From the NCBI GenBank assembly GCA_016927595.1, contig JAFGMI010000018.1, forward strand, positions 62,001 to 126,000: a stretch of DNA of 64,000 nucleotides, read 5' to 3'. Position 1 is the first letter of the stretch. Every line of letters begins with the position of its first letter. Origin of the DNA: Melioribacteraceae bacterium. Its GTDB lineage: Bacteria > Bacteroidota > Ignavibacteria > Ignavibacteriales > Melioribacteraceae. The position numbers were made by a program, and so were the translations under genes. The notes beneath the pieces are model-generated. The model ran no database searches, was not told the DNA's origin, and was given only the letters and a program-made list of their open reading frames with translations. Shown piece by piece: positions 5,609 to 61,474 of this stretch.

Positions 5609-5611
5609 AGT

Positions 5612-6451
5612 TTAAGTGAGTTTAAGTACTTTTACTTCCAGCAGACTTTTTACAAAGAGAAAAAACTTGTGCACATTAGAGATCCTAACCCTGTCTTTTT
5701 TCAGCTTTGAAACGCTGCATTTTCTGATCTTGGCAAATAATCTCTGATAGTAAAGGAAAGCAGAATAAACACCGAGTTTTACACCAATCGGAAGTTTCAT
5801 AATACCGGCAAGTGCTTCGTGGAATTCACGTTCAATTTCGTTTTCGAGCAGTTTCTTGTTATCATCATTTATTTCAATTTCCGCATTAAGATTGGGCAGA
5901 TAAATTCTTCCTCTCTCCTCCAGATCACTCTTAATGTCTCTTAAAAAATTCACCTTCTGGAAGGCTGAGCCCAGGAGCCTTGCGGCTTCTTTAAGCTGAT
6001 CGAATTTCGAGGGGTCTTCTTTTACAAAAACTTTAAGACACATAAGACCTACAACTTCAGCCGATCCATAAATGTAGTTATCGTATTTTTCTCTTTTGTA
6101 AGTTGAGTTGGAGAGATCCATTTCCATACTATCGAGGAAAGCTCCGATATATTCTCTGTTTATACCGTAATCTTTCACAACCTTCTGGAAAGAATGCAGC
6201 ACAGGATTGGTTGATATTCCATTGTCAATCGCATCATACGTATCTCTTCTGAACTTATCAAGCAAATCCTTTTTATCGAAGCCATGAAATGTATCTACAA
6301 TCTCATCGGCTATTCTTACAAAACCGTAAATGGCATATATGGGATCTCTGTATTCCGGTGTAAAGGCTTTTATACCGAAACTAAAGGAAGTACTGTAAGA
6401 CTGAGTAAGCTGCTTACTCATTTTGTATGATACACTGTCATATAGATTCAT
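5612..6451 (-). CDS. crtB: phytoene synthase
   Basis: A 279-residue member of the squalene/phytoene synthase family. The two aspartate-rich Mg-diphosphate motifs are D-E-I-V-D at residues 49-53 and D-I-K-S-D at 172-176. The latter is followed by L-E-E-R-G-R-I-Y-L-P, the phytoene-synthase signature. It joins two geranylgeranyl diphosphates to phytoene, the first committed carotenoid step. Its start overlaps the stop of crtI by 14 bp. Squalene or diapophytoene synthase is less likely because all neighbours are C40 carotenoid genes. Confidence 0.92.
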   Translation of the reverse strand: MNLYDSVSYKMSKQLTQSYSTSFSFGIKAFTPEYRDPIYAIYGFVRIADEIVDTFHGFDKKDLLDKFRRDTYDAIDNGISTNPVLHSFQKVVKDYGINREYIGAFLDSMEMDLSNSTYKREKYDNYIYGSAEVVGLMCLKVFVKEDPSKFDQLKEAARLLGSAFQKVNFLRDIKSDLEERGRIYLPNLNAEIEINDDNKKLLENEIEREFHEALAGIMKLPIGVKLGVYSAFLYYQRLFAKIRKCSVSKLKKDRVRISNVHKFFLFVKSLLEVKVLKLT

Positions 6452-7916
6452 GATCTTTTTCTATCCTCTCAGTTACAAGTTTTGAGCTTATTATTACCAT
6501 CGGCAGTCCTGTACCTGGAGTTGTAGATGCGCCGACGTAGTACAGATTGCTTAATTCTTCATCTTTATTGCTGGGTCTGAACGCCCCAACCTGATCAATA
6601 TCGTGAGCCAGTCCGAGTCCGGAACCTCTATAGAGGTTTAATGTCTCCGCCCAGTCAACCGGGGTTAATATTTTTTTAGTTAAAATATTTTCCGGAATGT
6701 TGAATCCAACACGTTCCGACAAGTCATTAATGATATTGTCAGCAAGTTCGTCTTTGTCAGACCAGTCATTTTTGTATCTTAAATCCGGTACCGGACAGAG
6801 AATAAATATGTTTTCACAGCCTTCCGGGGCGCTGGTTTTATCGGATTTCGACAATGAGTTAACATAATAATACGGTTTCTGAGGACTGATTGAAGACGTA
6901 AAAATTGTATCGGCATAGCCTTTAAAGTTACTGCCAAGGAAATAGTTATGATGCATCAGCTTATCAATTTTTCCCTTCACACCCAAATAAATTGTAAATG
7001 GTGCAAGCGTCCAGTGCATTTTATCAAGCTTCTTCTCAGAATAATTTTTTCGTCCCAGAATCTTTCCCCTGAATGAAGCTGCATCGGAGTTCGATACTAT
7101 AATATCAGCACTCCATTTATTACCATTCTGATCAACGAGTTCATTAATTTTACCGTTATAATTACCCAGTCCTACAATTTCAGTATTATAAATAATTTCC
7201 ACACCCATGCTGTTAAGAATTTTCAGAATTTCCTCAACCATTCTGTACATTCCGCCTTTAACACGCCAGTAACCGTTGTGCCTCATTTCGGTATAATTCA
7301 GAAGTGAGTATATAGCCGGCGTCTTAAACGGAGTTGCCCCCAGAAAAAACGCTACCAGGGAAAATATAATTTTTACCTCCTCCGACTTGAATGTTTTATC
7401 TACTTCACTCCACATCGTCCTGAACAGATAAGGCAGATGTTTGAGGGGGACTCGGCTGAGTTTGAGAATATATTCCAGCTTATTATTAAAATTAGATTTA
7501 ACAACCTTATCCTCGGTATCGTGAAAAAACTGCGCTGCACGCTTAAGATACACATCGGTTTTAGCTGCAAGGTCTGGTTCTATATCGCCAAACTCTTTCT
7601 CGAGTTTCTGAAGATCCTTGTAAATTAATCTCGGTTTTTCCTGTCCTTCAAAAAACACCTGATAGAGCGGATCGAGTTCTTCAAGCTCAACGGGATTTAA
7701 AATGCCGATGCTGTTAAAAAGCTCATCAAGTTCATAAGTCATGCTCATAAAAGACGGACCCATATCAAACCTGAAGCCATCCTGCTCGATAAGGTTTAAC
7801 CTGCCGCCAGCTCTCGAATGCTTTTCAAGAACGGTTACTTTATAACCTTTATGAGCAAGTCTTAATGCGGTACTTAAACCGCCTAGTCCCGACCCTATTA
7901 TTATTGCTGTTTTCAT
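6438..7916 (-). CDS. crtI: phytoene desaturase, first gene of the carotenoid operon
   Basis: A 492-residue FAD-dependent desaturase with the N-terminal motif I-I-G-S-G-L-G-G-L-S-T and the C-terminal signature Y-Y-V-G-A-S-T-T-P-G-T-G-L-P-M-V. It converts phytoene to lycopene. It leads the operon, directly upstream of crtB with a 14-bp overlap, the usual crtI-crtB pairing. A 385-bp (or, to the true FtsX stop, equally long) gene-free stretch lies upstream and should contain the operon promoter. No light- or B12-dependent operator could be recognised there. Confidence 0.88.
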   Translation of the reverse strand: MKTAIIIGSGLGGLSTALRLAHKGYKVTVLEKHSRAGGRLNLIEQDGFRFDMGPSFMSMTYELDELFNSIGILNPVELEELDPLYQVFFEGQEKPRLIYKDLQKLEKEFGDIEPDLAAKTDVYLKRAAQFFHDTEDKVVKSNFNNKLEYILKLSRVPLKHLPYLFRTMWSEVDKTFKSEEVKIIFSLVAFFLGATPFKTPAIYSLLNYTEMRHNGYWRVKGGMYRMVEEILKILNSMGVEIIYNTEIVGLGNYNGKINELVDQNGNKWSADIIVSNSDAASFRGKILGRKNYSEKKLDKMHWTLAPFTIYLGVKGKIDKLMHHNYFLGSNFKGYADTIFTSSISPQKPYYYVNSLSKSDKTSAPEGCENIFILCPVPDLRYKNDWSDKDELADNIINDLSERVGFNIPENILTKKILTPVDWAETLNLYRGSGLGLAHDIDQVGAFRPSNKDEELSNLYYVGASTTPGTGLPMVIISSKLVTERIEKDHESI

Positions 7917-8301
7917 ATTAGATGAGAACCTAAATAATTATTTAATAGTTCCATTTGGATATCAACGAAGAGTTCAAAAAAGGAATATTATTTATATTAA
8001 AGGTTATTGAACGGTTTTCACGATAGCGAAGAGATAACAAATGATAATTTATAAGAATTAAATCTATTTACAAGAATTAACTGAAAAAACTAAATTGTTA
8101 TTTGATTACATCAATTATTATTTAATTTCAAACAAAGATGCCGATGTCTTTGTTGGTCGCATTTTACTTAACAATTATAAATGTGATTGATTTATCAGGA
8201 AAGATTTCCCTGTTTGCAGCAAAGCCGATTACGGAAAATTTAGTATTAGCAGCCTAATACAATTAACACCAATACACCACGTTCCCACTGTAACCTGATT
8301 A
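7917..8301. other. gene-free leader of the carotenoid operon
   Basis: This 385-bp AT-rich stretch has no credible coding region on either strand. It lies upstream of crtI and downstream of the FtsX-like gene, both on the minus strand, so it must hold the carotenoid promoter and the FtsX terminator. A 9-base direct repeat, AAGAATTAA, occurs at 8053-8061 and 8072-8080, spaced 19 bases apart. This is compatible with two turns of a DNA-binding protein but is too AT-rich to assert. No strong terminator hairpin was found. Confidence 0.4.
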
Positions 8302-10719
8302 TTATTCCGTTCTTAACGATCTGGCAGGGTTCTGTGATGCAGCTTTAATTACCTGGGAGCTTACGGTCATTATTGCTACAATCAAAGAAATAAATCCCGA
8401 TGTGATAAAAATCCACCAGCCTAAATCTATTTTGTATGCAAAGCCTTCCAGCCAGCGACTCATTGCATAATATGCCATTGGCCATGCAATTATGTTAGCA
8501 ATTATAACCCATTTACTAAACTCTTTAACAAGTAAAAACAGAATCCCTCCTATACTTGCGCCCATAACCTTTCTGATTCCAATTTCCTTGGTTTTCTGCT
8601 CAGTAATAAATGCAGCCAGACCGAATAGACCGAGACAGGCTATAAGCACTGCAAGTATTGAAAATGCAGTAAACAATTCTCCGGTTTTACGTTCGGCTTC
8701 ATAAACTCTTGCGAATTCATCATCCATAAATGTGAATTCGAAGGCTTGATCAAACGCAAAATCCTTCCATGTTTTTTCAATACTATCCATGGTTGAACGT
8801 ATGTTCTGAGCTGAAATGCGTACAGCGGTCACCCTGCCGTTAAATCTGATAGGGAATATCGCCATGGGACGAATTTCTGAATGCAGTGATTCAAAGTTGA
8901 AATCTTTTACCACACCGATTATAGGCATAAACCGCGTTTCTTCGGGATTCCGTCCCCTGTCAATCAGCCGTTTACCGATCGGGTTTTCAAGTCCCAGAGC
9001 TTTAACTGCTTTTTCATTCAGAACAACACCTGCAGAATCTGAAGGAAACTCTTCCGAGAAAAACCTGCCCTCAGCCATTTCAAGCTGGTACGTGTCCGCC
9101 AGATCATAATCAGCAAACCACAGCCAGAAAAGATGGTTCTCATTACTACCCATCCCTTCAACCTGATAAACAGTATTTCCGAAACCTCCGCCTGGCACAG
9201 AGGAATGATTTGTTACACTCAAAATATTAGGATTATCGAGAAGGTTCTGTTTAAAAGCTTTAAGTCTGTCGGCTAGATCATCAGTTTTTTCAATGATAAC
9301 CAGTTGATCTTTGTTAAAGCCGAGTTTCCGATTCTGTATATAATCGAGCTGGTTATAAACAACAAATGTTCCGACAAATAGTACAACCGATATACCGAAC
9401 TGAAATACTACCAGTCCGCTCCTTAACCAGGATCTTTTGCCTTTCATACCCATATTGCCGCGAAGTACATTCACAGGCATAAACGAAGTTAGTACGAATG
9501 CCGGATAAAGACCTGCAAGCAGCCCCACTAAAGCCGCGAAAGCTACAATTGCCGGCAATGCGGTAAAATTATCAAAGAACGAAAGCTCCAGATTTTTGCC
9601 TGCTATATCGTTGAATGAAGGAAGGAGTAGTTTAATAAATACTATTGCAAGCACAACCGCTATAAGCGTAAGGATTACCGATTCAACCAAAAACTGAATG
9701 ATCAGTTTTGTTTTATCCGAACCGAGGGTTTTACGTATACCTACTTCCCTGGCTCTCGTGGTAGATCTTGCGGTGGAAAGATTCATGAAGTTAATTATTG
9801 CAATCAACAGTATTGCAAAAGCCACAAGTGAAAATATGTATACATACGAGGCATCACTGTTTGCTTCCACGTCGTATTCCAAATCAGAATAAAGATGTAT
9901 TGATGTAAGAGGTTGGATTTCAAACCTGTATGCAGCTCCCTGTTCTCTGAGCTTCTCAAATGATGTCCCGGTAAACTGTTCTATCTGAGGTGCGGCGTAT
10001 TTAATTACAAGGTTATCCAGCTTCTCTTTAAATTTTTCAAGAGATGTTCCTTGTTTAAGTACAGCGTAAGTGTAAAAATTGTTGCTTACCCAGAATTCGT
10101 TTCTGCTGTTGTCATAACGTGTAAGCGATTCAAGAAACTCTGGATGGAAGTGCGAATTCTCCGGAAAATCTTCTATAACAGCCGTAACAATAAAATCATT
10201 CCGGCGGTCGGAATTAATAACTTTCCCCAATGCCGGCTCATCACCAAAATATTTTTTTCTCATCGATTCGGTAAGAACAATTGCATCCGGTTTTGTTAAA
10301 GCGTTTTCCTTACTGCCCTCAAGAAACTTCACCGTAAATACATCAAAGAATGTCGAGTCTGCCCAGTACACTTTCTCTTCACTAAATGCCTTGTCTCCGT
10401 AACGGAACACGGGGAAACCGTAACTTCTGAATCTTGTAACTGCTTCAACTTCAGGAAATTCTCTCAACATGGTAAAAGCCAGAGGTGCCGGCGATACAGC
10501 CATCCTGAATTCGTTAGCTGCCAGCCTGCCTTCGGTGTGAACCCTGTAAATACGGTCAGCTTTTTCATGAAACCTGTCATAGCTGAGTTCATCCATTACA
10601 AACAGCAGGATTAATACGCACGAAGCAATACCAATAGCCAGACCCGTTATATTTATCAGTGAGAAATTTTTATATTTCAGAAGGTTACGAAATGCGATTT
10701 TAATGTAATTTTTGAGCAT
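8302..10719 (-). CDS. ABC transporter permease, MacB/FtsX type
   Basis: A protein of about 805 residues with the arrangement of bacterial MacB-like permeases found in multiples in Bacteroidota: N-terminal helix, large periplasmic domain, three helices, a second helix-plus-periplasmic-domain repeat, and a final three-helix FtsX domain with K-E-I-G-I-R-K-V-M-G-A-S. A matching V-G-I-R-K-T-L-G-S-D-K occurs in the first half. I start it at ATG 10719 because GAGGGAAG lies just upstream; a longer frame begins with TTG at 10743. No ATPase gene is beside it in the same direction, so its ATPase partner is elsewhere. Substrate unknown; such proteins export peptides or lipids or act as mechanotransmitters. 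Confidence 0.85.
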   Translation of the reverse strand: MLKNYIKIAFRNLLKYKNFSLINITGLAIGIASCVLILLFVMDELSYDRFHEKADRIYRVHTEGRLAANEFRMAVSPAPLAFTMLREFPEVEAVTRFRSYGFPVFRYGDKAFSEEKVYWADSTFFDVFTVKFLEGSKENALTKPDAIVLTESMRKKYFGDEPALGKVINSDRRNDFIVTAVIEDFPENSHFHPEFLESLTRYDNSRNEFWVSNNFYTYAVLKQGTSLEKFKEKLDNLVIKYAAPQIEQFTGTSFEKLREQGAAYRFEIQPLTSIHLYSDLEYDVEANSDASYVYIFSLVAFAILLIAIINFMNLSTARSTTRAREVGIRKTLGSDKTKLIIQFLVESVILTLIAVVLAIVFIKLLLPSFNDIAGKNLELSFFDNFTALPAIVAFAALVGLLAGLYPAFVLTSFMPVNVLRGNMGMKGKRSWLRSGLVVFQFGISVVLFVGTFVVYNQLDYIQNRKLGFNKDQLVIIEKTDDLADRLKAFKQNLLDNPNILSVTNHSSVPGGGFGNTVYQVEGMGSNENHLFWLWFADYDLADTYQLEMAEGRFFSEEFPSDSAGVVLNEKAVKALGLENPIGKRLIDRGRNPEETRFMPIIGVVKDFNFESLHSEIRPMAIFPIRFNGRVTAVRISAQNIRSTMDSIEKTWKDFAFDQAFEFTFMDDEFARVYEAERKTGELFTAFSILAVLIACLGLFGLAAFITEQKTKEIGIRKVMGASIGGILFLLVKEFSKWVIIANIIAWPMAYYAMSRWLEGFAYKIDLGWWIFITSGFISLIVAIMTVSSQVIKAASQNPARSLRTE

Positions 10720-41674: not shown

Positions 41675-41876
41675 TATCCAAATTGAAATTTATATTCGGA
41701 TCAAAGCACAGAAAGTTACAAATCATTCTCATTATTACATTCTGGAAAATATCTTTTTAATATTTCTCAGCATATTTTCAGTCTTATCCTGATCGGACTT
41801 TCAGTTTTAAAAATCATTTTTGCATTTAAACAATAAATTTAATAAAATAAAAAAATTTAGGACATTCAGGATAAAG

Positions 41877-42785
41877 ATGACGAAAGAAAAAAGTATTTGT
41901 GCTTACGGTGAAATATTATTGGATGATTACGGCGAATACAGTACTATCGGCGGCGCTCCTTTCAATTTCATATATCATATCAATAAATTATACTGCGAGG
42001 GACACCTGATAACCAGGGTGGGAAATGATGAGGAAGGCAAAGGCATTTTAAAACTACTTAAAAGAAGATCAATACCCGTTGAATTAGTACAGATTGACAA
42101 TATTAAACCGACCGGTATTGTAAAGGTTAATCTGAATAACGAAAAAGTACCGGGGTTCGAAATTCTGCGCGACCGGGCTTATGATTACATTGAATACAGG
42201 AAAGATGCTGATGATTTTATAGAAAACAGTACGGCGCTGCTTTATTACGGCACGCTTTCACAAAGATCTGAAGTTTCCAGAAACACATTGAATTTTCTGC
42301 GTAGTAAAAATGTAAAATGTTTTTATGATGTTAACCTTCGCCAGAATTTCTACACAAAGGAGATAATAGAAAATTCGCTTGCTGGTGCCGACGTTGTAAA
42401 AATGAATATAGATGAATTGAAATTGCTGAATGCGCTTTTGTATAATAGTAATTCGATAAACTTAAGAGAAACTGCCGACAGATTGATATCGCAGTACAAC
42501 TTCGACATTTTATGTATAACAATGGGCAAAGACGGATCAATTATATTTTTCAACGGCAGCGAAGCAACTTATAAACTGGAAATTGAGAACGTAGTGAATA
42601 CCGTAGGTGCGGGTGATGGTTATTCAGCAATTGTGGCAATCGGATATCTAAATAACTGGAGTACGGGAAATATTATTAAAGTTGCAAACGATTTTGCAGG
42701 CGATATTTGCACAATTGATGGCGCTGTTCCTGAAGATGATAATTTTTATGATAAATATACCGGGATAATTCAAAATGAAAAATGA
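41877..42785 (+). CDS. PfkB-family sugar kinase, probable fructokinase
   Basis: A 302-residue ribokinase-fold kinase. ATG 41877 follows CAGGATAAAG; an upstream TTG at 41820 is in frame but not supported. The substrate motif G-G-A-P-F-N-F is near residue 23, and the anion-hole/catalytic motif N-T-V-G-A-G-D-G-Y-S-A with its aspartate near residue 250. It overlaps the sucrose-phosphate synthase gene by 11 bp. The fructose released by sucrose synthase or metabolised with it would be phosphorylated here to fructose-6-phosphate. Confidence 0.85.
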   Translation: MTKEKSICAYGEILLDDYGEYSTIGGAPFNFIYHINKLYCEGHLITRVGNDEEGKGILKLLKRRSIPVELVQIDNIKPTGIVKVNLNNEKVPGFEILRDRAYDYIEYRKDADDFIENSTALLYYGTLSQRSEVSRNTLNFLRSKNVKCFYDVNLRQNFYTKEIIENSLAGADVVKMNIDELKLLNALLYNSNSINLRETADRLISQYNFDILCITMGKDGSIIFFNGSEATYKLEIENVVNTVGAGDGYSAIVAIGYLNNWSTGNIIKVANDFAGDICTIDGAVPEDDNFYDKYTGIIQNEK

Positions 42786-44943
42786 AAAAGGGTTATACAT
42801 ACAGCTTTACAATATTCACGGTTTAATACGAGGTGAAAACCTGGAACTAGGCAGGGATTCGGATACAGGCGGACAAACAAAGTACGTTCTGGAATTGGCA
42901 AAAAACCTTTCTGAAAGAAACGAAATTCGCAAAGTTGAGATTATGACCAGATTGATCGATGATAAGGATTTATCAGAATCATATTCCGTCAAGTACGAAA
43001 AGATAAACGAGAAACTATTTATCACCAGAATTCAGTGCGGAGGTAAAAAATATATCAGAAAAGAATTGCTTTGGGATCACCTCGAAGAATACGCCGATAA
43101 AACGATCAAATACATTAAATCTACCGGTGAGATCCCTGATTTAATACATAGCCATTATGCAGATGCGGGCTATGTCTGCACACAACTCACACGCTTTCTC
43201 GGAATACCTCTTATTCATACCGGACACTCCCTTGGAAGATTAAAAAGACAAAACCTGCTCGGCAGCGGATTAACAGAAGATGAAATAGATAAAAGATATA
43301 AAATCAGCCGGCGCATTGAAGCAGAAGAATCGGTTATGTTTTTCAGCGACAGAATTATAACAAGCACCAACCAGGAAATTGAGTCTCAGTACGGAATGTA
43401 TCAAAACATGATAGAGGAAAAATTCAGAGTGATTCCGCCAGGTATAGAACTGGATAAATTTTTCCCTTACAATCAACAGAGGGAGTGGGACGATCATCAT
43501 CAGGTTATCAGATACAAAATACGCGATGAACTTCTAAATTTTTTCAACAACATTCATAAACCGCTTATACTTTCACTGTGCAGACCCGAGAAAAGGAAAA
43601 ACATATCAGGATTGATTGAAGCATTCGGCAGAAGCGAGGAGCTTCAACAGAAAGCTAATCTGGCAATTTACGCCGGCATCCGCAAAGATATACAGGAAAT
43701 GCCCGAATTAGAAAGAGAAGTCCTTACAGAAATGCTCCTGCTAATGGATAAATATAATTTATATGGCAAAATGGCAATTCCCAAGAAGCATGACTTCGAG
43801 CATGAAGTCCCTGAACTTTACAGAACCGCAGCTGAAACAGGCGGAGTATTCGTGAATTCCGCTTTTGCCGAAAATTTCGGGCTGACTTTGATAGAGTCTG
43901 CTTCCAGCGGGCTTCCGATAGTTTCTACTGATGACGGTGGTCCGCGTGATATAATCAATAATTTACAGAATGGGATTCTTGTTGACGTTAAAAACCCCGA
44001 AAATATTGCCGATGCAGTAAATAAAATTCTGGATAATAAAAGAACATGGAAAGAATTTTCGGAGAATGGAATTCACAGGGTCGGTAAATTTTATTCCTGG
44101 AAAGCACACGTTGATAATTACCTGGAAACGATAAACGAATTACTGGAGGAAACTACCATCAAACCTAAAACATTTATCGATACCGGCAAGCAGTTGTTCG
44201 GATTTCAAAAACTTATAATGCTTGATATCGACGATACAATAACCGGTGATACTGATGCTTTAACTGAACTAAAAGAAATAATTCTTACTATGGACGAAAG
44301 GATTGGATTCGGTGTTGCAACCGGAAGACACATTGAATCGGCGTGTGATATTCTGCAGCAGAATAATTTTGCAAAGCCTCATATAATTGTATCTTCTGTC
44401 GGCTCGGAAATTTACTACAGAAACAGGAATGACTATGATTATTCAACAAGCTGGGAAGCACACATAAAGAATTCGTGGAAACCGGAGCGTATAATGGAAC
44501 TGCTTGACGATTTTGAATTTCTGGAATTGCAGACTCCCGAAAACCAGCGCAAGTTCAAAGTATCTTATAACCTGCATACCGATGAAAAAGATCTGCAGAG
44601 GGCCAGGGATATACTGATCAAAAATAAAATTAAAACCAACCTGATTGTAAGTCACGGCGCCTATGTGGATTTTTTGCCGTTCAGAGCCAGTAAAGGAAGA
44701 GCAATCCGATATTTAAGTTACCGCTGGAACATTCCGCATAAAAATATTTTAGTTGGCGGCGATTCGGGTAATGATGAGGATATGCTCACAGGAGAACTTC
44801 TCGGTGTTGTTGTTGCCAACCATACGGAAGATCTCGAAAAATTAAGAGGCAGACGTAGAATATATTTTTCAGAACAAAGTCATGCAAATGGAGTGACCGA
44901 CGGAATTAAATACTACAACTTTTTAAGAGGTGATTTACAATGA
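42775..44943 (+). CDS. sucrose-phosphate synthase with C-terminal sucrose-phosphatase domain
   Basis: A 722-residue bifunctional protein. The N-terminal GT4 part (about 1-455) has G-R-D-S-D-T-G-G-Q-T-K-Y-V and the later UDP-sugar region N-S-A-F-A-E-N-F-G-L-T-L-I-E-S-A. The C-terminal HAD part (about 475-722) begins L-D-I-D-D-T-I-T-G-D (nucleophile motif) and ends with G-G-D-S-G-N-D-E-D-M-L. Together they make sucrose-6-phosphate from UDP-glucose and fructose-6-phosphate and then dephosphorylate it. Such fusion occurs in cyanobacteria and plants. The gene overlaps both neighbours. Confidence 0.92.
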   Translation: MKNEKGLYIQLYNIHGLIRGENLELGRDSDTGGQTKYVLELAKNLSERNEIRKVEIMTRLIDDKDLSESYSVKYEKINEKLFITRIQCGGKKYIRKELLWDHLEEYADKTIKYIKSTGEIPDLIHSHYADAGYVCTQLTRFLGIPLIHTGHSLGRLKRQNLLGSGLTEDEIDKRYKISRRIEAEESVMFFSDRIITSTNQEIESQYGMYQNMIEEKFRVIPPGIELDKFFPYNQQREWDDHHQVIRYKIRDELLNFFNNIHKPLILSLCRPEKRKNISGLIEAFGRSEELQQKANLAIYAGIRKDIQEMPELEREVLTEMLLLMDKYNLYGKMAIPKKHDFEHEVPELYRTAAETGGVFVNSAFAENFGLTLIESASSGLPIVSTDDGGPRDIINNLQNGILVDVKNPENIADAVNKILDNKRTWKEFSENGIHRVGKFYSWKAHVDNYLETINELLEETTIKPKTFIDTGKQLFGFQKLIMLDIDDTITGDTDALTELKEIILTMDERIGFGVATGRHIESACDILQQNNFAKPHIIVSSVGSEIYYRNRNDYDYSTSWEAHIKNSWKPERIMELLDDFEFLELQTPENQRKFKVSYNLHTDEKDLQRARDILIKNKIKTNLIVSHGAYVDFLPFRASKGRAIRYLSYRWNIPHKNILVGGDSGNDEDMLTGELLGVVVANHTEDLEKLRGRRRIYFSEQSHANGVTDGIKYYNFLRGDLQ

Positions 44944-47339
44944 TTCAGAACAGCTTCATAGATCGAACACAAAATATTGGAAATGATTTTTTCAGTTTTT
45001 TGCAAAGTCTTTTGAACAGAGAAAAAAAGTTTTTAATACTTGGTGATTTAAGTGAAGCATTTCATGAGTTTAAAAAAAATAATCAAATTGAGAATCCGGA
45101 ACTCGACGACATTATACGGCATTTACAGGAATGTTTTGTGCTTGATAATTCCATACATCTTGATGTTAGGGTTAAGATCGGTTACAGTGAATTCTACTGC
45201 GTAAATATGGAGGAACAATTAATAGAACCAATTTCTATCAAGCAATATCTGATACGAAAAGAAAAATTCATCAATCCGAATTTTTCGAACAATATTTTAA
45301 CCATTGATTTCAAGCCGTTTTATGATAAAAATCCTTCGGTAAGAGATATAAAGAATATTGGTGCAGGGGTTGAATACCTCAACAAATTTTTATCGAGTGA
45401 AATGTTTACAAACCTTGATAAGTGGAGAGATCTGCTCATGAATTTTTTGAAGCTCCACAAACACAATAATCAGCAGTTAATCTTAAACGACAGAATTAAT
45501 AATGCGGAGCATCTTAACGAGAACATAAAAAAGGCAAATAGAATTCTTTCGGAACTTAATAGCAGTGAACCATACAAAAATATAAAACACCAAATGCAGA
45601 ATCTCGGTTTCGAAATAGGGCTTGGTAAAGATGCCGGGAACATTCTGGAAAACCTTGATTTACTTGACACTTTATTAAACTCACCCGATAACTCTTCACT
45701 AAAAGATTTCATTTCAAGAATACCTATGATTTTTAACATCGCGGTTGTCAGTGTACATGGCTACTTCGCTCAGGAGAATATACTCGGCAGACCGGATACA
45801 GGAGGACAAGTTGTTTACATACTTGACCAGGTTAAGGCGTTGGAGAAAGAACTGATTAACACCTTGAAACAGTCCGGGTTGAATGTACTGCCGAAGATCG
45901 TAATTCTTACAAGACTAATACCTAACGCTGGCGATACAAATTGTAACGTTAGACTTGAAAAGGTAACCAATACAAAAAACACCTGGATTCTGCGCGTACC
46001 TTTTAGAAACCATAACCCTAAAGTAACCGATAATTGGATTTCCAGATTTGAAATATGGCCTTATCTCGAAGAGTTTGCAGAGGATTCTTATACTGCTCTG
46101 AAAGCCGAATTCAACGGTCGCCCCGATTTAGTAATCGGGAATTATTCTGACGGGAACCTGGTTTCTTATCTGATTTCAAAGAAATTTGGTGTAACACAAT
46201 GCTGCATAGCACATGCACTTGAAAAAAGTAAATACTTATTCAGCGATTTGTACTGGAATGATCTTGAGGATCAATACAACTTTTCGATACAGTTTACTGC
46301 AGATTTAATTGCAATGAATTCATCCAATTTTCAGATAACTTCGACGTATCAGGAAATAGCCGGTACTGAATTTACGGTCGGGCAATATGAAACACACAAA
46401 CACTTCACGCTGCCCGGTCTTTATCGTGTGGAGAACGGTATCAATCTGTATGATACCAAATTCAATGTTATCTCGCCCGGTGTGAACGAAAGAATTTATT
46501 TCCCGTTCACTAAAAAATCTAATCGAATAAAAAGTCTTCAGGAAACACTGAACGGCTTGCTGTTCGGGAACACTGAAGACAGTGATATATTCGGCACATT
46601 GGAAAATTCCGAAAGGATTCCATTGTTTTCAATGGCACGCCTGGATGTGAATAAAAACCTTGCTTCACTCGCAAGATGGTTTGGTGAAAGCAAAGAACTC
46701 CAGGAAATATCGAATCTAATTCTGATCGCCGGAAGAATTAATACAAACGACTCTTCGGATAAAGAAGAGATAGAACAGATAAATCTTATGCATCACTACA
46801 TTGAGAAATACAATCTGCAGAACAAGATCAGGTGGATAGGCAAATTATTCCGAAAAGATGAAGCCGGTGAAGTTTACAGAGTAATTGCTGATCACAAAGG
46901 ATTTTTTGTTCAACCAGGTTTATTCGAAGGATTCGGGTTAACTGTTCTTGAATCCATGAATTCCGGGTTACCGGTAATTGCTACAAAATACGGTGGTCCG
47001 CTGGAGATAATACAAAACGGCGTCAATGGATATCACATTGATCCGGTAAACGACGATGAAAGCATAAGAGTATTAACAGAAATAGTAAGCCGGTCAAAAA
47101 ACAATCCAGTTGTTTGGGAAAAATTATCTGAAGCTTCAATAAAACGTGTTCAGGAAAAATACAACTGGCGGCTTTATTCAAAAAAGTTATTATCGCAATC
47201 GAAGATTTACGGTTTCTGGAAGTATTCAACTGATCTGGAAAACACCGGAAAGGATGCTTACCTTGATCTTATATATCACCTCCTGTACAGACCACGTGCA
47301 CAGCGGCTTTTTTTAAAACACAACAGTACTGAGTCTTAA
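44940..47339 (+). CDS. susA: sucrose synthase
   Basis: A 799-residue GT4 enzyme of plant/cyanobacterial sucrose-synthase length. An N-terminal regulatory region of about 260 residues precedes S-V-H-G-Y-F-A-Q then L-G-R-P-D-T-G-G-Q-V-V-Y-I-L-D-Q, the family hallmark. The C-terminal nucleotide-sugar domain has F-V-Q-P-G-L-F-E-G-F-G-L-T-V-L-E. It reversibly converts sucrose and UDP to UDP-glucose and fructose. ATGA overlap with the preceding gene. With the kinase and synthase it makes a closed sucrose-cycling unit. Confidence 0.93.
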   Translation: MIQNSFIDRTQNIGNDFFSFLQSLLNREKKFLILGDLSEAFHEFKKNNQIENPELDDIIRHLQECFVLDNSIHLDVRVKIGYSEFYCVNMEEQLIEPISIKQYLIRKEKFINPNFSNNILTIDFKPFYDKNPSVRDIKNIGAGVEYLNKFLSSEMFTNLDKWRDLLMNFLKLHKHNNQQLILNDRINNAEHLNENIKKANRILSELNSSEPYKNIKHQMQNLGFEIGLGKDAGNILENLDLLDTLLNSPDNSSLKDFISRIPMIFNIAVVSVHGYFAQENILGRPDTGGQVVYILDQVKALEKELINTLKQSGLNVLPKIVILTRLIPNAGDTNCNVRLEKVTNTKNTWILRVPFRNHNPKVTDNWISRFEIWPYLEEFAEDSYTALKAEFNGRPDLVIGNYSDGNLVSYLISKKFGVTQCCIAHALEKSKYLFSDLYWNDLEDQYNFSIQFTADLIAMNSSNFQITSTYQEIAGTEFTVGQYETHKHFTLPGLYRVENGINLYDTKFNVISPGVNERIYFPFTKKSNRIKSLQETLNGLLFGNTEDSDIFGTLENSERIPLFSMARLDVNKNLASLARWFGESKELQEISNLILIAGRINTNDSSDKEEIEQINLMHHYIEKYNLQNKIRWIGKLFRKDEAGEVYRVIADHKGFFVQPGLFEGFGLTVLESMNSGLPVIATKYGGPLEIIQNGVNGYHIDPVNDDESIRVLTEIVSRSKNNPVVWEKLSEASIKRVQEKYNWRLYSKKLLSQSKIYGFWKYSTDLENTGKDAYLDLIYHLLYRPRAQRLFLKHNSTES

Positions 47340-48469: not shown

Positions 48470-50401
48470 CTAAATATTTAAGTTAATCCCGAAATACAAT
48501 TCCCGTCCGGGTTGCGGAAAACCATATTCGGTTTCATAATATATATCGGTAATGTTATTTACCCTAAAATAAAGGTTGTAGTGTTCGAAGAACAAATGGG
48601 ATAATTTCAGATTTAATAGAAAATAATTATCCATTTTAACAAATTCTCTTGAATCAGCATCAACACCGTACTTATTCCCAAAATAATATACCTCAGCACG
48701 AAGTTCTGTGCCAAAACCGAACTGATAATTCGGGACAAAAGTTAAAACGTGCTCGGGGCGGTATTCAAGTATTTCGCTTGCCGCATCATCAGAAACATTT
48801 TTTGCTGAAAGATATGTATAAGCTAAATTCATATTAAACTTATCAGCATTAAATTGTAAACCTAATTCAGCCCCCCTCATTTCTGCTTTACCTATGTTCT
48901 GATACTGCCTTAAACCGTCTTTTAAAAATACAAGATTGATTAATTCATCAATCGAACTGTAGAATATATTTCCATTTAAAAATATTCTGCCGCTTAACTT
49001 ATAATCAAATCCAAGTTCACTGTTTATACTTTGCTCAACGTTTAAATCGGGATTCGCAATGTCTCTTCCCGCTGTTTCACTGTAAAACTCTTTTAACGTG
49101 GGGAAGCGATTTTTCCTGGAAGCGTTAACATGCAGCAATACTTTATCATTGAGTTTATAATTTAATCCTACAAACCCATTAACTGAAGAACTCGGATTTC
49201 TCAAGTCATTTCCATCTGAATAAACCGGAGTAAGCAAATCGTAGCCAACTGCAGCAACAGCCGATAAATTCCCGCTGATGCTGATGTCCTGTTCAATTCC
49301 CGCACTTAAAAGTGAAGCTTCATATTTTGAAAAGCCTTCGTTGAAATTACCTTCTTCTTTATGTACATCTTTTTTCCAGGAGAATGATATTCTGGTCAGC
49401 CCGGTATTCAGTGCGTCAATATCATTCAGTATATTTATTCCGAACGAATGATCATCGTAAGTTGAATGAAAAGCGTATTTCATATTCTGTGTCGTGAAGG
49501 TATTATCGTCATACGAATCGAGAACGTTTTTATATGTATCGTAGAAAACATTTCCTCTGAAACGAAATGAAGAACCAACACCTGAACTGAACATCAGATT
49601 GTTTGTTGTTTTTTTCCATTCGCTATAACGCCAGTAACGCGGACGCGTAGTGTAAACATCAGTCGGGACACCTTTTTCGTTATCTGCTATCATTAAAGAG
49701 TATGCGAGGTTGACATTATAAAAATTATTCACCCCGACTTTCAGCATTCCCCCGATATTTTCATAATCGCTGTTATTTCTTTTGCCGCCATCTTCATTCA
49801 GAAAGCTGCTTTTAGTTTCCGGGATATCGAACCCGTCAGATTTAGAATAACCTGCGCTGAGTGCGTAATATAATTCACCGAATCCGCCGCTCAAATCAAC
49901 CGATGTTGAATTAGCAGCGCCTGATTCTATTTTTAACGCAAGGGTTTTATCCATCCGACTTTTCGTAATAAAGTTAATAGTACCACCCATAGAGTTCGAA
50001 CCGTAGGCAATCGAAGGCATTCCTTTCGATACGGTAATCTTTTCGATTGAACTTTTGGGTAAGTTACTTAAATCAACCAAGCCGGAATAAGGTTCATAAA
50101 TCGGGACACCGTCTACGAATACTGTAACTTGTCTTTGATCGTATCCGCGCATATAAATTTTAGATTCGTTCTTCGATGTGGTAGTGATATACAGTCCCGG
50201 TAAATATTTGAGTGGATCGGTTACGTTATATCCGTCGGTTTGATTTATTTCATCCATATTAATGTCATCCACAGACGATGAATTAACCAAACTGCTTTTA
50301 TCTGATGTGACAACTACTTCTCCCAGGTTATAAATCCGTTGTGCGTCATCCTGTGCATTAATTATTGTTGCAAAAAATAACAGCAAAATCAGTTTTTTCA
50401 T
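48470..50401 (-). CDS. TonB-dependent outer-membrane receptor under the Moco-like leader
   Basis: A receptor of about 643 residues. I start it at ATG 50401, preceded by GAGGAATAAA; the frame extends to 50434 inside the upstream gene. Signal peptide to about residue 17 (N-A-Q-D), TonB box region near R-I-Y-N-L-G-E-V-V-V, plug domain with Y-M-R-G-Y-D-Q-R-Q-V-T-V-F-V-D-G-V and A-Y-G-S-N-S-M-G-G-T-I-N-F, then the 22-strand barrel ending G-I-N-L-N-I. No carboxypeptidase-like N-terminal domain is present. It imports a scarce compound using TonB energy. It is the last of three genes after the leader RNA, so I infer a molybdate/tungstate chelate or pterin cofactor precursor. Cobalamin or iron chelate are alternatives. 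Confidence 0.88.
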   Translation of the reverse strand: MKKLILLLFFATIINAQDDAQRIYNLGEVVVTSDKSSLVNSSSVDDINMDEINQTDGYNVTDPLKYLPGLYITTTSKNESKIYMRGYDQRQVTVFVDGVPIYEPYSGLVDLSNLPKSSIEKITVSKGMPSIAYGSNSMGGTINFITKSRMDKTLALKIESGAANSTSVDLSGGFGELYYALSAGYSKSDGFDIPETKSSFLNEDGGKRNNSDYENIGGMLKVGVNNFYNVNLAYSLMIADNEKGVPTDVYTTRPRYWRYSEWKKTTNNLMFSSGVGSSFRFRGNVFYDTYKNVLDSYDDNTFTTQNMKYAFHSTYDDHSFGINILNDIDALNTGLTRISFSWKKDVHKEEGNFNEGFSKYEASLLSAGIEQDISISGNLSAVAAVGYDLLTPVYSDGNDLRNPSSSVNGFVGLNYKLNDKVLLHVNASRKNRFPTLKEFYSETAGRDIANPDLNVEQSINSELGFDYKLSGRIFLNGNIFYSSIDELINLVFLKDGLRQYQNIGKAEMRGAELGLQFNADKFNMNLAYTYLSAKNVSDDAASEILEYRPEHVLTFVPNYQFGFGTELRAEVYYFGNKYGVDADSREFVKMDNYFLLNLKLSHLFFEHYNLYFRVNNITDIYYETEYGFPQPGRELYFGINLNI

Positions 50402-50402
50402 T

Positions 50403-50951
50403 TTATTCCTCATTAATTGTGTTGTTAGGAGCAAGTTTTTCCGATTTATGTAAGAGTGGATAGATCATTTTAGCCAGGAGTTCGGATGGGTTTCTCAGCA
50501 CCGACTTAATTGAATTATTTTCTTTTCGAACTTTATTAAATCCCGATTTTATATCAGGCAGAATCTCTTCAGCTTTTTGCAGTACGTTATCGAACTCTTC
50601 TAATCCTCTCTGTTTCCAAAAGGCTTTTACATGTTCTCTGCTCGTACTTCGATTTATCAAAGTGATTGAACTTATAATTACAACCGCTCTGCAGAACATG
50701 GCGATCCCGTTTACGAATGCATCGGCAGAATAATCCAATCCCAGAAATTTATTTACAGGTTCACCGATTATCATCGGCTGAAGTATTACAACTATCGTAA
50801 AAAGAAAATAAATCGATTTTCTTTTGAATAATCCCAACAAACTTATATCAATCTGCGAATAGACAATCATAGCAATTATCGAAACCGCAATTACCAGTTC
50901 AGCCGGAAGAATTATTACCGATAATACAACCAGTCCTATCAGGTATTTCAT
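50403..50951 (-). CDS. EcfT-like transmembrane component of an ECF-type transporter
   Basis: A 182-residue protein with about four helices, then a cytoplasmic helical tail. The segment F-C-R-A-V-V-I-I-S-S-I-T-L-I followed by S-T-S-R-E-H-V-K-A-F and E-E-I-L-P-D-I matches the coupling region of EcfT/CbiQ proteins. It is shorter than typical EcfT (about 260 residues). It overlaps the S-like gene by four bases and ends two bases before the start of the receptor gene. No EcfA ATPase is in the window, so if this is an ECF module it must use shared ATPases. Assignment is tentative. Confidence 0.55.
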   Translation of the reverse strand: MKYLIGLVVLSVIILPAELVIAVSIIAMIVYSQIDISLLGLFKRKSIYFLFTIVVILQPMIIGEPVNKFLGLDYSADAFVNGIAMFCRAVVIISSITLINRSTSREHVKAFWKQRGLEEFDNVLQKAEEILPDIKSGFNKVRKENNSIKSVLRNPSELLAKMIYPLLHKSEKLAPNNTINEE

Positions 50952-51556
50952 TTTGCATTCTCCATTAAATTCTGAATTTGCCTCCCCACCGATAACCCTA
51001 ATGATGCCGACAGTGCTCCGGTTATTAGGTGAATAAACGGAACTGAAAGCAGAATTATTATTACTATGTTTTCATCTAGTCCTATTTTGTTTGTAAAACT
51101 CAGAACAAGTTCATAGTATATTTTATAGATATCCATTCCCAGAAATACGGCTTGCATTATAAGACCGTGAAGCAATGTATAAACCATAATTGCAGCGCCG
51201 GTTATTACGCAGGTAATTCTGTTATAACCGAATTTGTTCAATACTATTTCAGCTATCAGCGATTCAAGTAATATTGCAATGAATGGAGTAATATTAAAAC
51301 CGACACCGAGAAAAAGGCGGAAAGTTGCCGTAACAATTCCAAGCAGTATTAAGGACCCCTTGTAATTTATAACTGATCTTGCGCAAACCAGTATCATAAT
51401 AGCGGCAAGAGACATAATAGCGCCGCGGAAAGGTATTTTTGATGCATGCAGAAATGTTCCTATCGATATTTCTGCTAGTCCCCAAACTGCAGCGAATACT
51501 GCGGTGTTAACTAAATTGCTTTCGGATAGTTTTTCTATTTTCAATATTTTAGTCAC
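50948..51556 (-). CDS. ECF S-component-like membrane protein, first gene after the leader RNA
   Basis: A 202-residue protein with six predicted helices, the size of ECF substrate-binding S components. It begins with V-F-A-A-V-W-G-L-A-E-I-S-I-G-T-F-L and carries I-P-F-R-G-A-I-M-S; the same pattern W-G-(I/L)-A-E-I-x-x-G...(P-x-R-G) recurs in a second protein at 60887-61459. This pairing shows a small family. It is the first gene after the terminator/antiterminator leader, followed by the T-like gene and the TonB receptor, so it probably binds what the receptor imports. Ligand is unknown. Confidence 0.6.
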   Translation of the reverse strand: MTKILKIEKLSESNLVNTAVFAAVWGLAEISIGTFLHASKIPFRGAIMSLAAIMILVCARSVINYKGSLILLGIVTATFRLFLGVGFNITPFIAILLESLIAEIVLNKFGYNRITCVITGAAIMVYTLLHGLIMQAVFLGMDIYKIYYELVLSFTNKIGLDENIVIIILLSVPFIHLITGALSASLGLSVGRQIQNLMENAK

Positions 51557-51632
51557 TTTTTAGCTTCCTAACTCAATCCTTTTTTGTTCCCTCTTCAGCT
51601 GTCAGGACTAGTAGAATGTATAAGAAGTTTAA

Positions 51633-51664
51633 AACAAAAAACCTCATCCGGAGATGAGGTTTTA
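51633..51664 (-). terminator. intrinsic terminator of the Moco-like leader
   Basis: On the minus strand AAAACCTCATC and GATGAGGTTTT form an eleven-pair stem with loop TCCG, followed by TTGTTTT. It lies 77 bases before the first gene and inside its leader, so it acts as an attenuator. Its 5' arm can instead pair with the 3' strand of the aptamer's closing stem. Confidence 0.88.
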
Positions 51665-51704
51665 CAAATTACCAAGACAACAGTCTTTATAATTACTTCC
51701 TCTT

Positions 51705-51819
51705 TCTCCTTTCCAATTCGTCCCTGTTTTATCGGGATTCGGGAGGTGCGATGATTTCTCATCAAACCCTTTCGGCTTGCAATCGTAGGAACTTTTCCCT
51801 TAGATTTTCAGCTCGGAGA
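51705..51819 (-). promoter_or_regulatory. candidate molybdenum-cofactor (Moco) riboswitch aptamer
   Basis: A 115-base structured RNA on the minus strand. TCTCC (51815-51819) and GGAGA (51705-51709) close it. Inside are GGAA/TTCC, a GCC-GAAA-GG element, the perfect hairpin GATGA-GAAA-TCATC, then CACCTCCCG, a TCCC/GGGA hairpin, and TTGGAAAGG. The order GCC...GGG, GAAA hairpin, CTCCCG, TGGAAAGG matches the E. coli moaA Moco leader as I remember it. It lies between tatA of the nap operon and the ECF-S-like gene. GGAGA-AA-GAGG at its 3' end can pair with CCTC-A-TCTCC of the terminator, giving an OFF switch when ligand is bound. An extra TCCC/GGGA hairpin is unlike the E. coli RNA. Class is probable, not proven. 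Confidence 0.72.
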
Positions 51820-51848
51820 TAAATTTTATTTTATTTTTATGTTTGTTA

Positions 51849-51875
51849 AAAATACTCCTTTTTACATCTTGTCAA
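51849..51875 (-). promoter_or_regulatory. possible promoter of the leader RNA
   Basis: TTGACA (51870-51875) is followed, after 15 bases, by TATTTT (51849-51854), about 30 bases before the aptamer. The spacer is short, so read-through from the nap operon is an alternative. Confidence 0.3.
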
Positions 51876-51885
51876 ATAAATCGCT

Positions 51886-51917
51886 CCTCCACCGACGCAG
51901 ACTAGTACGCCGGAGTA
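51886..51917 (-). terminator. hairpin after tatA
   Basis: On the minus strand CTCCGGCG and CGTCGGTGGAG pair (one G-T, one bulge) just after the tatA stop. There is no T-tract, so it may be an mRNA-stabilising or processing hairpin rather than a full terminator. Confidence 0.45.
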
Positions 51918-51928
51918 GAGATATATAT

Positions 51929-52108
51929 TTAACTCTTCAGTTCTTTTTCGACGTCGATTTCATCGCGCACTTCTTTCATCGATGATTTCAATTCTCTTAT
52001 GCCTTTACCGATTCCTTTTGCCAATTCGGGCAGCTTTTTACCCCCAAATAGAACCAGCAATACTAACACAATAATCAGTATTTCCGTTGCACCAAGTGAA
52101 CCAAACAT
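51929..52108 (-). CDS. tatA: TatA twin-arginine translocase subunit
   Basis: A 59-residue protein. Short periplasmic start M-F-G-S-L-G-A-T-E, one helix [11 protein letters not shown], the hinge F-G-G-K-K-L-P-E-L, an amphipathic helix G-I-G-K-G-I-R-E-L, and an acidic tail ending E-K-E-L-K-S. It forms the Tat pore element. It is last in the nap operon, 16 bp after napH, and serves the export of NapA, which carries a twin-arginine signal. Too short for many gene callers. Confidence 0.93.
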
Positions 52109-53818: not shown

Positions 53819-56110
53819 CTATGCTTTCTCGACTCGGCATGCTGCTACTTTATATTCAGGCTCTTTCGAACCGGGGTCGACAGCATCTATGGTTAAGATG
53901 TTCGTTAAGCTTTCAGGCCAATGCCATGGGACAAAGATTGTTCCCTTTCTCGGTCTGTCAACTACTTTTGCTTCAACAATCAAAGAACCGCGTTTTGTTA
54001 CCATACGGACTTTATCTCTTGTCTTAACACCCCATTCTTTAGCATCTTCGGGATTGATTTCGACATAAGGATTAGGCGCCGCACGAACAAGTTCGGGAAC
54101 CTGTCCGGTCATGGTCATTGTATGCCATTGCTCCATAATTCTTCCCGTAGTTAATGCAATTGGATATTCAGCCGATGTAGGTTCTTCGGGACCTTTATCC
54201 GGACGAGCAAATATTGTTGCTCTTCCGTCAGGTTTGGTATAGAAGTACATTCTTTTTCCGGCAGCTTTATCCTTCGGGAAATACGGATCGCCGTCAGTAA
54301 ACCTGTGCGTTGTACCGGGGTGGTCTTCCGAAGGAACTGGCCACCTTAACCCGCGCACTTTTTTCAATCGGGCAAAAGTAGCACCGGTTAAATCCATATC
54401 TTTTCCTTTTGTACTTTTAATGTACTCGGTCCATACTGCTTCAACCGAGGTAAAGTGTTCAAAGTTATTTCCGTAACCCATACGTTTTGCAATATCAGCC
54501 AGAATGAATCCGTCCCACCTTGCTTCACCAGAAGGTTTTAGTGCCTGAGCCATGTGCTGGGAGCGTCTTTCCGTACAACCGTAAACGCCTTCCTTTTCAC
54601 CCCAGAATGCTGCGGGCAAAACTACGTCGGCAACCTGGGAGGTTTCTGTTGGATGAAATGATTCGGCTACTACCATAAAAGCATCACTCATTCCTTTCAA
54701 GTACTTATTCAGGTTTGGAATCGACTGAGCGGGATTTGTACACAGAATATATATTCCTTTGATTTCTCCTTTACCCAATGCATCAAACATTGCAACTGTG
54801 TGCTTACCTGGTTTGGGTTGTATTTTCTCTGCCGGAACATTCCATAGCTCGGCAATTTCTTTTCTGTGTTGCTCATTAGCAACAACTCTATGCCCGGGAA
54901 GCAAATGGCACAATCCGCCGCCTTCACGAACACCGCCGCAGGCATTAGGCTGTCCGGTTAATGAAAACGAATCACAACCGTCTTTACCGAGTTTTCCTGT
55001 TAACAGATGGAGATTATGAATCAGATTATTCAAAAATACTCCTGCAACTCTTTGGTTTACACCCATACACCACATTGTCATAACTCTTGGGGTTTCGCCG
55101 AAAAGTTTTGCAGCTTTTACTATATCATCAGCATTTACACCACATTGTTTCGCTGCATACTCAGGAGTGTATTTCTCTAAGAACTTCTTGTAATCTTCAT
55201 AGGTAATCGGATTCTTACCGTCACTGAAGTTTACACTATCTTTAATAAACTGTTCGTCAGTATAACCGTTGTCAATGATTAGTTTTGCTATAGCGTGTAT
55301 TATAGCCAGGTCGTAACCCGGAATTACCTGGAGATGCAAATCGGCAATTTTGTTTGTAGGAGTTTTTCTCGGATCGACGATAACAATTTTTACATTTGGA
55401 TTTTGTCTTTTTCTTCTTGCAATTCTATCGTACAGAACAGGATGAGCTTCAGCAGTATTACTGCCTACAATAAAAAACAAATCACATTTTTCAATATCAT
55501 CATAAGTACCGATTGGTTCATCCGCACCGAATGTGGTCGTATAACCACCTACGGCACTCGCCATACACAAACGTGGATTTCCTTCAACATTGTTTGTACC
55601 GATATGACCTTTAAATAATTTGTTTGCAACATACGTTTCCTCGGTTTCTGCCTGACCGGAACCATAAAATGCCAATGCGTCCGGACCGTATTTGTCGCGG
55701 ATTTCAGAAAACTTCGAAGCAACTAAGTCTAAAGCTTCTTCCCAGGTTGCCCTTGTTAATTTTCCGTTCTTTCTAATCATCGGATAAAGCAGACGGTTTT
55801 TCGCCGTAATCATTTGATGAAGATAGAAAGCTTTCACACAAAGCAAACCGCTGTTAACCGTATTTTCTTTATCACCTCGTATTCCAACGGGCTTTCCATC
55901 TTTAACCCCCAGCATAACTCCGCAGCCAACCCCGCAGAAACGACAGACCGACTTATGCCACTGAACACCCTTGCTGTCCTGCATAAAATCGGCTTCGTCA
56001 ATTTTGGCTTTAGCAAAAGCTTCATTACCAAAAATTGATCCGATACCGAGTGTTGTAGCGGCGGCAGATAATGCGGAGGCGCGTAAAAAATCTCTTCTAC
56101 TTAAACTCAT
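53819..56110 (-). CDS. napA: periplasmic nitrate reductase catalytic subunit
   Basis: A 763-residue molybdenum bis-MGD enzyme. Twin-arginine signal S-R-R-D-F-L-R-A-S at residues 4-12. [4Fe-4S] ligands Cys56, 59, 63 and 91. The molybdenum ligand is Cys182 in L-C-M-A-S-A-V-G-G-Y. The C-terminal MGD-binding domain includes L-T-T-G-R-I-M-E-Q-W-H-T. It reduces nitrate to nitrite in the periplasm. Length and the napM neighbour match the Desulfovibrio-type NapA (about 755 residues) rather than the enteric one. It starts after GGAGGAAT. An assimilatory NasA is excluded by the Tat signal and the NapDGH genes. Confidence 0.94.
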   Translation of the reverse strand: MSLSRRDFLRASALSAAATTLGIGSIFGNEAFAKAKIDEADFMQDSKGVQWHKSVCRFCGVGCGVMLGVKDGKPVGIRGDKENTVNSGLLCVKAFYLHQMITAKNRLLYPMIRKNGKLTRATWEEALDLVASKFSEIRDKYGPDALAFYGSGQAETEETYVANKLFKGHIGTNNVEGNPRLCMASAVGGYTTTFGADEPIGTYDDIEKCDLFFIVGSNTAEAHPVLYDRIARRKRQNPNVKIVIVDPRKTPTNKIADLHLQVIPGYDLAIIHAIAKLIIDNGYTDEQFIKDSVNFSDGKNPITYEDYKKFLEKYTPEYAAKQCGVNADDIVKAAKLFGETPRVMTMWCMGVNQRVAGVFLNNLIHNLHLLTGKLGKDGCDSFSLTGQPNACGGVREGGGLCHLLPGHRVVANEQHRKEIAELWNVPAEKIQPKPGKHTVAMFDALGKGEIKGIYILCTNPAQSIPNLNKYLKGMSDAFMVVAESFHPTETSQVADVVLPAAFWGEKEGVYGCTERRSQHMAQALKPSGEARWDGFILADIAKRMGYGNNFEHFTSVEAVWTEYIKSTKGKDMDLTGATFARLKKVRGLRWPVPSEDHPGTTHRFTDGDPYFPKDKAAGKRMYFYTKPDGRATIFARPDKGPEEPTSAEYPIALTTGRIMEQWHTMTMTGQVPELVRAAPNPYVEINPEDAKEWGVKTRDKVRMVTKRGSLIVEAKVVDRPRKGTIFVPWHWPESLTNILTIDAVDPGSKEPEYKVAACRVEKA

Positions 56111-60852: not shown

Positions 60853-60897
60853 GGTTAAAAACTTAACCAATATTGAGAAAAACCTGTTAAAAAACAG
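60853..60897 (-). terminator. two small hairpins after the ECF-S-like paralogue
   Basis: On the minus strand CTGTT/AACAG is followed by GTTTTTC, and then GGTTAA/TTAACC. They lie at the stop codon of the upstream gene and probably separate it from the kinase transcript. Confidence 0.4.
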
Positions 60898-61459
60898 TTA
60901 AGGCAAATTTTTCAATTTTTTCCGACCATCTGTAGACAAGAATTCCGGCAATTGCTCCAAAAAGCAGATTTATAAGAAAGAAAAGAATTAAAATTAGTTC
61001 AACAGAAATATCTATTCCCCACGAACCATAAACTAAGTTTTCGTAGACTGTAAGAATATTTCTGCCATAATAATAACTATGCATTATTATACAATGAAAA
61101 TATGTATACAGCATTAATAACATGCCTGTTATCAGAGTTGCATTTTTGAAATCTTTAAATATTAGTAAGGACAATTCGGCTAAGATTACTAAAAGAACAA
61201 CAGCCAGCAATGCCGAATGGAAAATATTCTGGTAATACACTGCTTTCAGAATCACGGCAATAAATCCTAATAATAAAACAGATCCTGAAAACTTTGCAAG
61301 CCTCTTAGCTGTTATGATAAAGAATATTGAAACAAAAGTTAAAATTATTCCCCTTATCGGAAGAGCAAGCGTTTGGATTAAATCTCCTACAATAATTTCC
61401 GCAATACCCCAAAGAATTCCCAAAGAAAAGACCGATATGATTTTCTGATTTCTGTTCAT
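60887..61459 (-). CDS. paralogue of the ECF-S-like membrane protein
   Basis: A protein of about 190 residues with six helices, starting at ATG 61459 behind AAAGGTGAG (a GTG at 61468 is in frame). It shares L-G-I-L-W-G-I-A-E-I-I-V-G and L-P-I-R-G-I-I-L-T with the S-like protein at 50948-51556, and has the same spacing of later helices. It lies between the octaheme cytochrome and the kinase. Its own ligand is unknown; a role in supply of a cofactor for the respiratory enzymes is inference. Confidence 0.6.
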   Translation of the reverse strand: MNRNQKIISVFSLGILWGIAEIIVGDLIQTLALPIRGIILTFVSIFFIITAKRLAKFSGSVLLLGFIAVILKAVYYQNIFHSALLAVVLLVILAELSLLIFKDFKNATLITGMLLMLYTYFHCIIMHSYYYGRNILTVYENLVYGSWGIDISVELILILFFLINLLFGAIAGILVYRWSEKIEKFALTVF

Positions 61460-61474
61460 TTTTCTCACCTTTAA

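Follow-up and report, generated by a model that had tools for sequence, protein, structure and literature searches.

Why does a riboswitch of the Moco class precede genes for a TonB-dependent receptor and two small membrane proteins, and what would these genes bring into the cell? The question is raised by a locus in the genome of a Melioribacteraceae bacterium (G000; 3.85 Mb, completeness 99.8%). The DNA studied, here called the window, is a stretch of 64,000 nt from assembly GCA_016927595.1 (contig JAFGMI010000018.1, positions 62,001-126,000, forward strand), and the class surveyed around it comprises 391 genomes of Ignavibacteria/Kapabacteria. The features concerned are, in window coordinates:

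51690-51830, minus strand: Moco riboswitch aptamer (RF01055), lacking P3 (58.8 bits; compensatory changes)
51638-51663, minus strand: intrinsic terminator hairpin with U-run, putative expression platform of an OFF switch (folding; sister leaders)
50948-51556, minus strand: S-like membrane protein for substrate binding, 202 aa, starting with GTG, predicted ECF S-component fold (predicted structure, linkage)
50403-50951, minus strand: T-like membrane protein, 182 aa, predicted EcfT-like fold, C-terminally short (TIGR02454, Foldseek)
48470-50434, minus strand: BtuB-like TonB-dependent receptor, 654 aa, probably starting at an ATG near 50401 (PF00593, PF07715)
53819-56110, minus strand: periplasmic nitrate reductase of the NapA type, which is a bis-MGD molybdoenzyme (profile matches)
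51929-52108, minus strand: TatA-like protein encoded last in the nap operon, immediately 5' of the riboswitch (sequence, translation)
60887-61468, minus strand: second paralogue of the S family, 193 aa, standing alone some 9 kb upstream (same synteny in G106 and G207)

The RNA lies between nap-tatA and the S, T and TonB genes, as the earlier note on this DNA had described it; the product of 51929-52108 we take to be TatA-like from known TatA features, not from a profile. The S paralogue adjoins a multihaem cytochrome gene and has no T or NTPase gene beside it. Elsewhere in the window, at 41820-47339 (plus strand), fructokinase-like, sucrose-phosphate synthase/phosphatase-like and sucrose synthase-like genes stand in tandem, as named from their translations.

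The leader RNA

The earlier note had proposed a Moco riboswitch from motif elements ordered as in the E. coli moaA leader, and this identification is borne out. Scanning of the whole window with cmscan gave a match to RF01055 at 51830-51690 (minus strand) covering the full model (1-135) with 58.8 bits against a gathering threshold of 36 (E = 1.6e-11), the only Rfam match in the window above gathering. The aptamer elements are in place: CUCCGAGC, CUAAGG, a GAAA-capped P4, CCUCCCG and GGAAAGGAG. The stretch 51557-51928, under which the note had entered it, is the entire intergenic leader and the aptamer proper lies inside it. The leader folds with a z-score of -4.9 relative to 200 dinucleotide shuffles, and 3' of the aptamer an 11-bp terminator hairpin with a U-run is found (51663-51638); most sister leaders likewise have a U-run hairpin soon 3' of the aptamer. 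In 13 leaders that belong to operons of this type, two-sided compensatory change was seen in 15 of 23 predicted pairs. The outcomes that the earlier note had named as refuting its proposal were thus not obtained. Behind RF01055 in the class stand mostly moaA operons or the S/T/TonB operon, a Moco-related position. Judged from sequence and covariation, the RNA before the S/T/TonB genes is a genuine Moco-class riboswitch (RF01055), present once in the G000 genome. It has in common with the RNAs of the founding paper (Regulski et al. 2008, PMC2408646) the sequence, the structure, the transcription-terminator platform and Moco-related genes downstream, but differs from them in what follows it, an uptake operon of TonB/ECF type; searching the words of that paper for TonB, Bacteroid- and Chlorobi- gave no occurrence. 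At another locus (L071, contig C93 of G166) a tandem of RF01055 matches was found, both on one strand with a spacing of about 240 bases; the second is weak (29.2 bits).

The optional P3 stem is absent from the window RNA. Since P3-lacking Moco RNAs correlate with the use of Tuco (PMC2408646), the substrate might be a tungsten form of the cofactor sensed by such an RNA. This reading is very improbable: P3 status tracks the lineage and not the operon type, moaA operons too are found behind P3-lacking RNAs, and the neighbouring NapA is normally a molybdenum enzyme. P3 was also considered as a separator of transporter leaders from moaA leaders and was rejected, as it does not distinguish them.

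The S, T and TonB proteins

The stop of the S gene and the start of the T gene overlap. By profile the S protein has only weak Pfam matches, to ECF-type families, and the T protein matches TIGR02454 (ECF_T_CbiQ) weakly (E = 6.4e-5). Profile A1 found no match among PDB chains by sequence, and structure prediction was therefore used. The AlphaFold model of S (pLDDT 88.5) has the ECF S-component 5edl as its best PDB match in Foldseek (probability 1.00, TM 0.60), followed by TmRibU, and for the T model (pLDDT 74.7) the top five PDB matches are all EcfT chains (best probability 1.00, TM about 0.48); with E-values of 0.03-0.04 these matches are modest, but the best of them are ECF proteins. S and T are accordingly modelled as ECF-type folds. 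With ECF group II transporters (YkoE, RibU, folate, pantothenate) they share the S-component fold (5edl, TmRibU), the EcfT fold (7nnu, 5d3m, 4rfs) and the encoding of S and T together. Unlike those systems the window operon is without an ABC ATPase, and its T protein is short. In EcfT proteins xRx arginine motifs make the coupling to the ABC ATPases; none is conserved in alignment A4. We know of no Moco-type substrate of an ECF transporter.

The TonB-dependent receptor has both barrel and plug domains (PF00593 and PF07715). BtuB proteins are its best sequence relatives and its closest relatives in the PDB, but it falls far below the BtuB equivalog cut-offs, with 155.8 bits against 599.7 (TIGR01779) and 132.8 bits against 836 (NF007926). 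In contrast to BtuB it stands under a Moco and not a cobalamin riboswitch, and BtuCDF is not alongside.

A THEP1-like NTPase as possible counterpart of the ABC ATPase

No EcfA ABC ATPase was found in the window operon. Four candidate ABC ATPases scored far under the ECF ATPase cut-offs (best 148.8 against 330 bits), the others being judged by the signature motif alone. One adjacent ATPase pair, on contig C52, was considered as EcfA and rejected, as by context it belongs to an Opp-type oligopeptide system. In the place of the ABC ATPase of ECF group II, S/T/TonB operons mostly have a fused or adjacent THEP1-like NTPase (PF03266, which is not an ABC ATPase family; 40.7-83.6 bits, gathering 23.9), often with MobA. 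In several families S, T and the P-loop NTPase form a single protein of 570-580 aa, and in other genomes the NTPase gene follows the receptor gene and is sometimes itself followed by mobA. The G000 copy of the NTPase (PF03266, 31.9 bits) is on another contig, where it overlaps a MobA-like gene.

Distribution of the operon

RF01055 occurs in 65 of the 391 genomes. The earlier note had proposed surveying genomes for the same RNA before S/T/TonB genes, and 25 of the 68 riboswitch loci in the class, belonging to many families, were found to read into S, T and/or the TonB receptor; the remaining loci mostly read into moaA operons. Ignavibacteria, Ignavibacteriales and Ca. Kapabacteria MAGs were found to have the operon in an independent profile scan of named genomes, and at 8 of the 9 loci checked the riboswitch immediately precedes it. 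Paralogous S-T-NTPase modules adjoin molybdoenzyme genes, and the whole S family of the class therefore seems tied to molybdenum enzymes. At L186 (3965-11969), L189 and L190 an S-T-like fusion, a THEP1-like NTPase and a CMD protein adjoin a molybdoenzyme operon that includes a MerR-type gene; no Moco riboswitch match was found at this paralogous system. Outside the class, an Opitutus (Verrucomicrobiota) MAG has a module in which an NTPase-S fusion is encoded together with a 149-aa protein and a TonB receptor (L180, 6392-10473), at which the riboswitch was not found.

Operon carriers and the Moco pathway

In the G000 genome MoaA, MoaC, MoaE and ModA (TIGR01256) were not found, and the statement that the window holds no molybdate ABC transporter thus extends, for ModA, to the entire genome. 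G000 keeps NapA beside the riboswitch, further molybdopterin-enzyme matches, and MoeA and MobA in a CMD-MoeA-MobA operon. In the closed genome G106 neither MoaA, MoaC, MoaE nor MoeA was found. MoaA is absent from 18 of the 25 genomes with riboswitch and transporter, including the closed or nearly closed G106, G221 and G194, and present in all of 6 control genomes with riboswitch and moaA operon. In G058, of the same genus as G000, the riboswitch precedes a CMD-ChrA-moaA-moaC-MOSC-moeA-mobA operon (MOSC being named from sequence, not profile), and the same exchange of operons behind the riboswitch within a genus was seen in three genera (G000/G058, G307/G069 and G154/G121). Since 7 of the 25 operon genomes also have MoaA, the operon is not purely a replacement for biosynthesis.

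The relation was quantified by scoring all 391 genomes for the S profile, MoaA and the molybdopterin-dinucleotide-binding domain, a clear molybdoenzyme being taken at E <1e-12. The MoaA cut-off was 1e-9 in all statistics; G039, G222, G292 and G321 have, together with MoaC and MoeA, a divergent MoaA that is missed at 1e-15. Among molybdoenzyme genomes MoaA was found in 75/82 without S and in 21/59 with S (MoaA+/MoaA- 21/38 with S, 75/7 without; Fisher p = 1.3e-12), and 7 had neither. The exclusion held when collapsed to genera (p = 7e-9), and shuffling of S within families gave a mean of 33.7 genomes with both S and MoaA against the 21 observed, with 0 of 20,000 shuffles as low. Molybdoenzymes were found in 38/87 of the MoaA-negative genomes with S and in 7/150 of those without. 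In S-positive, MoaA-negative genomes (n = 46) MoaC was found in 1, MoeA in 4 and MoaE in none. The gene most often retained with the transporter is mobA.

MoaE was tried as a marker of biosynthesis and rejected, being absent from most MoaA-positive relatives too (found in 5 of 21). G058, G358, G199, G125, G161, G176 and others have MoaA and MoaC without MoaE, their MPT synthase thus being unrecognised. The Moco-riboswitch moaA loci, as at L082 of G058 (4485-9150), often start with a 105-aa CMD/AhpD-like protein; in those operons ChrA-like or TauE transporters follow, or MOT1 is present, as candidate oxyanion importers under Moco control.

The substrate

As a Moco-sensing RNA precedes an importer, and molybdoenzymes are kept without the genes making their cofactor, the operon probably imports the cofactor or a late precursor. 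The earlier note had proposed an unreported uptake route for a metal, a metal chelate or a Moco precursor. This is supported in part, by an S/T/TonB uptake operon with computed ECF-type folds and by the linkage conserved behind the riboswitch; moaA and moaC are absent here and from most operon genomes. The metal or chelate option is disfavoured: the operon and moaA exclude each other, moaC and in most cases moeA are lost, mobA and molybdoenzymes co-occur with the operon, and these observations narrow the choice to the cofactor or one of its late precursors as the more probable substrate. Import of molybdate, tungstate or a metal chelate, with the pterin made by an unrecognised route, we consider unlikely. 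It would agree with the occurrence of Moco RNAs before molybdate transporter genes (PMC2408646), with the lack of ModA and retention of MoeA in G000, and with the uptake of metal chelates by TonB receptors, but the operon excludes moaA and not metal transport, and a metal importer would not compensate for the loss of MoaA and MoaC. Moreover most operon carriers lack MoeA, the metal-insertion enzyme, and the moaA operons behind the same RNA bear candidate oxyanion transporters of their own (ChrA, MOT1 and TauE families).

Import of cPMP or metal-free molybdopterin, with synthesis finished in the cell, is a possible alternative, above all in G000 where MoeA is kept (as in G207, G154 and G015), and for the operon in general we hold it to be quite improbable. 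With MoaE missing from most MoaA-positive relatives a non-orthologous MPT synthase may exist in the class, by which such import could be used, and cPMP, a smaller molecule than Moco, is also the more stable of the two. Against it, MoeA is absent from 42 of the 46 S-positive, MoaA-negative genomes and MoaE from all, and MobA, the product kept most often, acts on Mo-MPT.

We therefore consider it likely that the S/T/TonB genes are the uptake part of a Moco salvage route in which preformed Moco or molybdopterin replaces biosynthesis. In the mechanism that we infer, with its substrate, inward direction of transport, role of the NTPase and OFF logic, Moco or molybdopterin, either free or in a carrier form, would pass the outer membrane through the TonB receptor; it would then be bound by the S protein, and S, T and the THEP1-like NTPase would deliver it to the cytoplasm. 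MobA would convert it to the dinucleotide form for NapA, the likely consumer here, and for other molybdoenzymes. Cofactor sufficient within the cell would bind the leader RNA, whereupon the terminator would form and import be shut off. Against this reading, free Moco is unstable, and the natural source would therefore need to be protein-bound or stabilised. Four points are absent from the earlier note: that a THEP1-like NTPase goes with the operon, that genes of Moco biosynthesis are missing, that operons are swapped within a genus, and that P3 is lacking.

Precedent and meaning

In the literature that could be searched, subscription papers being mostly outside reach, no joint report of a Moco riboswitch and TonB was found, and no precedent for molybdopterin with ECF transporters or for molybdopterin import. 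Each of the parts is a variant of something known; the function proposed for them would, as far as found in that literature, be new in any bacterium. The stronger proposal, on which we are evenly divided, is that the operon encodes the first dedicated transporter of preformed Moco in any organism, a TonB receptor and S-T pair energised by a THEP1-like NTPase and not by ABC ATPases, regulated by the cofactor and serving auxotrophs that live on the cofactor of their neighbours. To our knowledge Moco is regarded as so unstable that it cannot be traded, and almost every user is assumed to synthesise its own. The closest parallel is the uptake of preformed dietary Moco by C. elegans (PMC9793310), where exogenous preformed Moco is likewise used, in place of de novo synthesis or alongside it, but in an animal, and with an unknown transporter. 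An exchange of molybdopterin cofactor has also been proposed in anammox aggregates (2024 review, PMC11224092).

If the proposal is true, Moco would be a shared public good like vitamin B12, and hidden Moco auxotrophs would be predictable from genome data. With this operon the cofactor exchange proposed for anammox aggregates (PMC11224092) would have a genetic basis, and the question raised by nematodes (PMC9793310) a first candidate Moco transporter; the operon may also reveal an ECF-like transport driven by a non-ABC NTPase.
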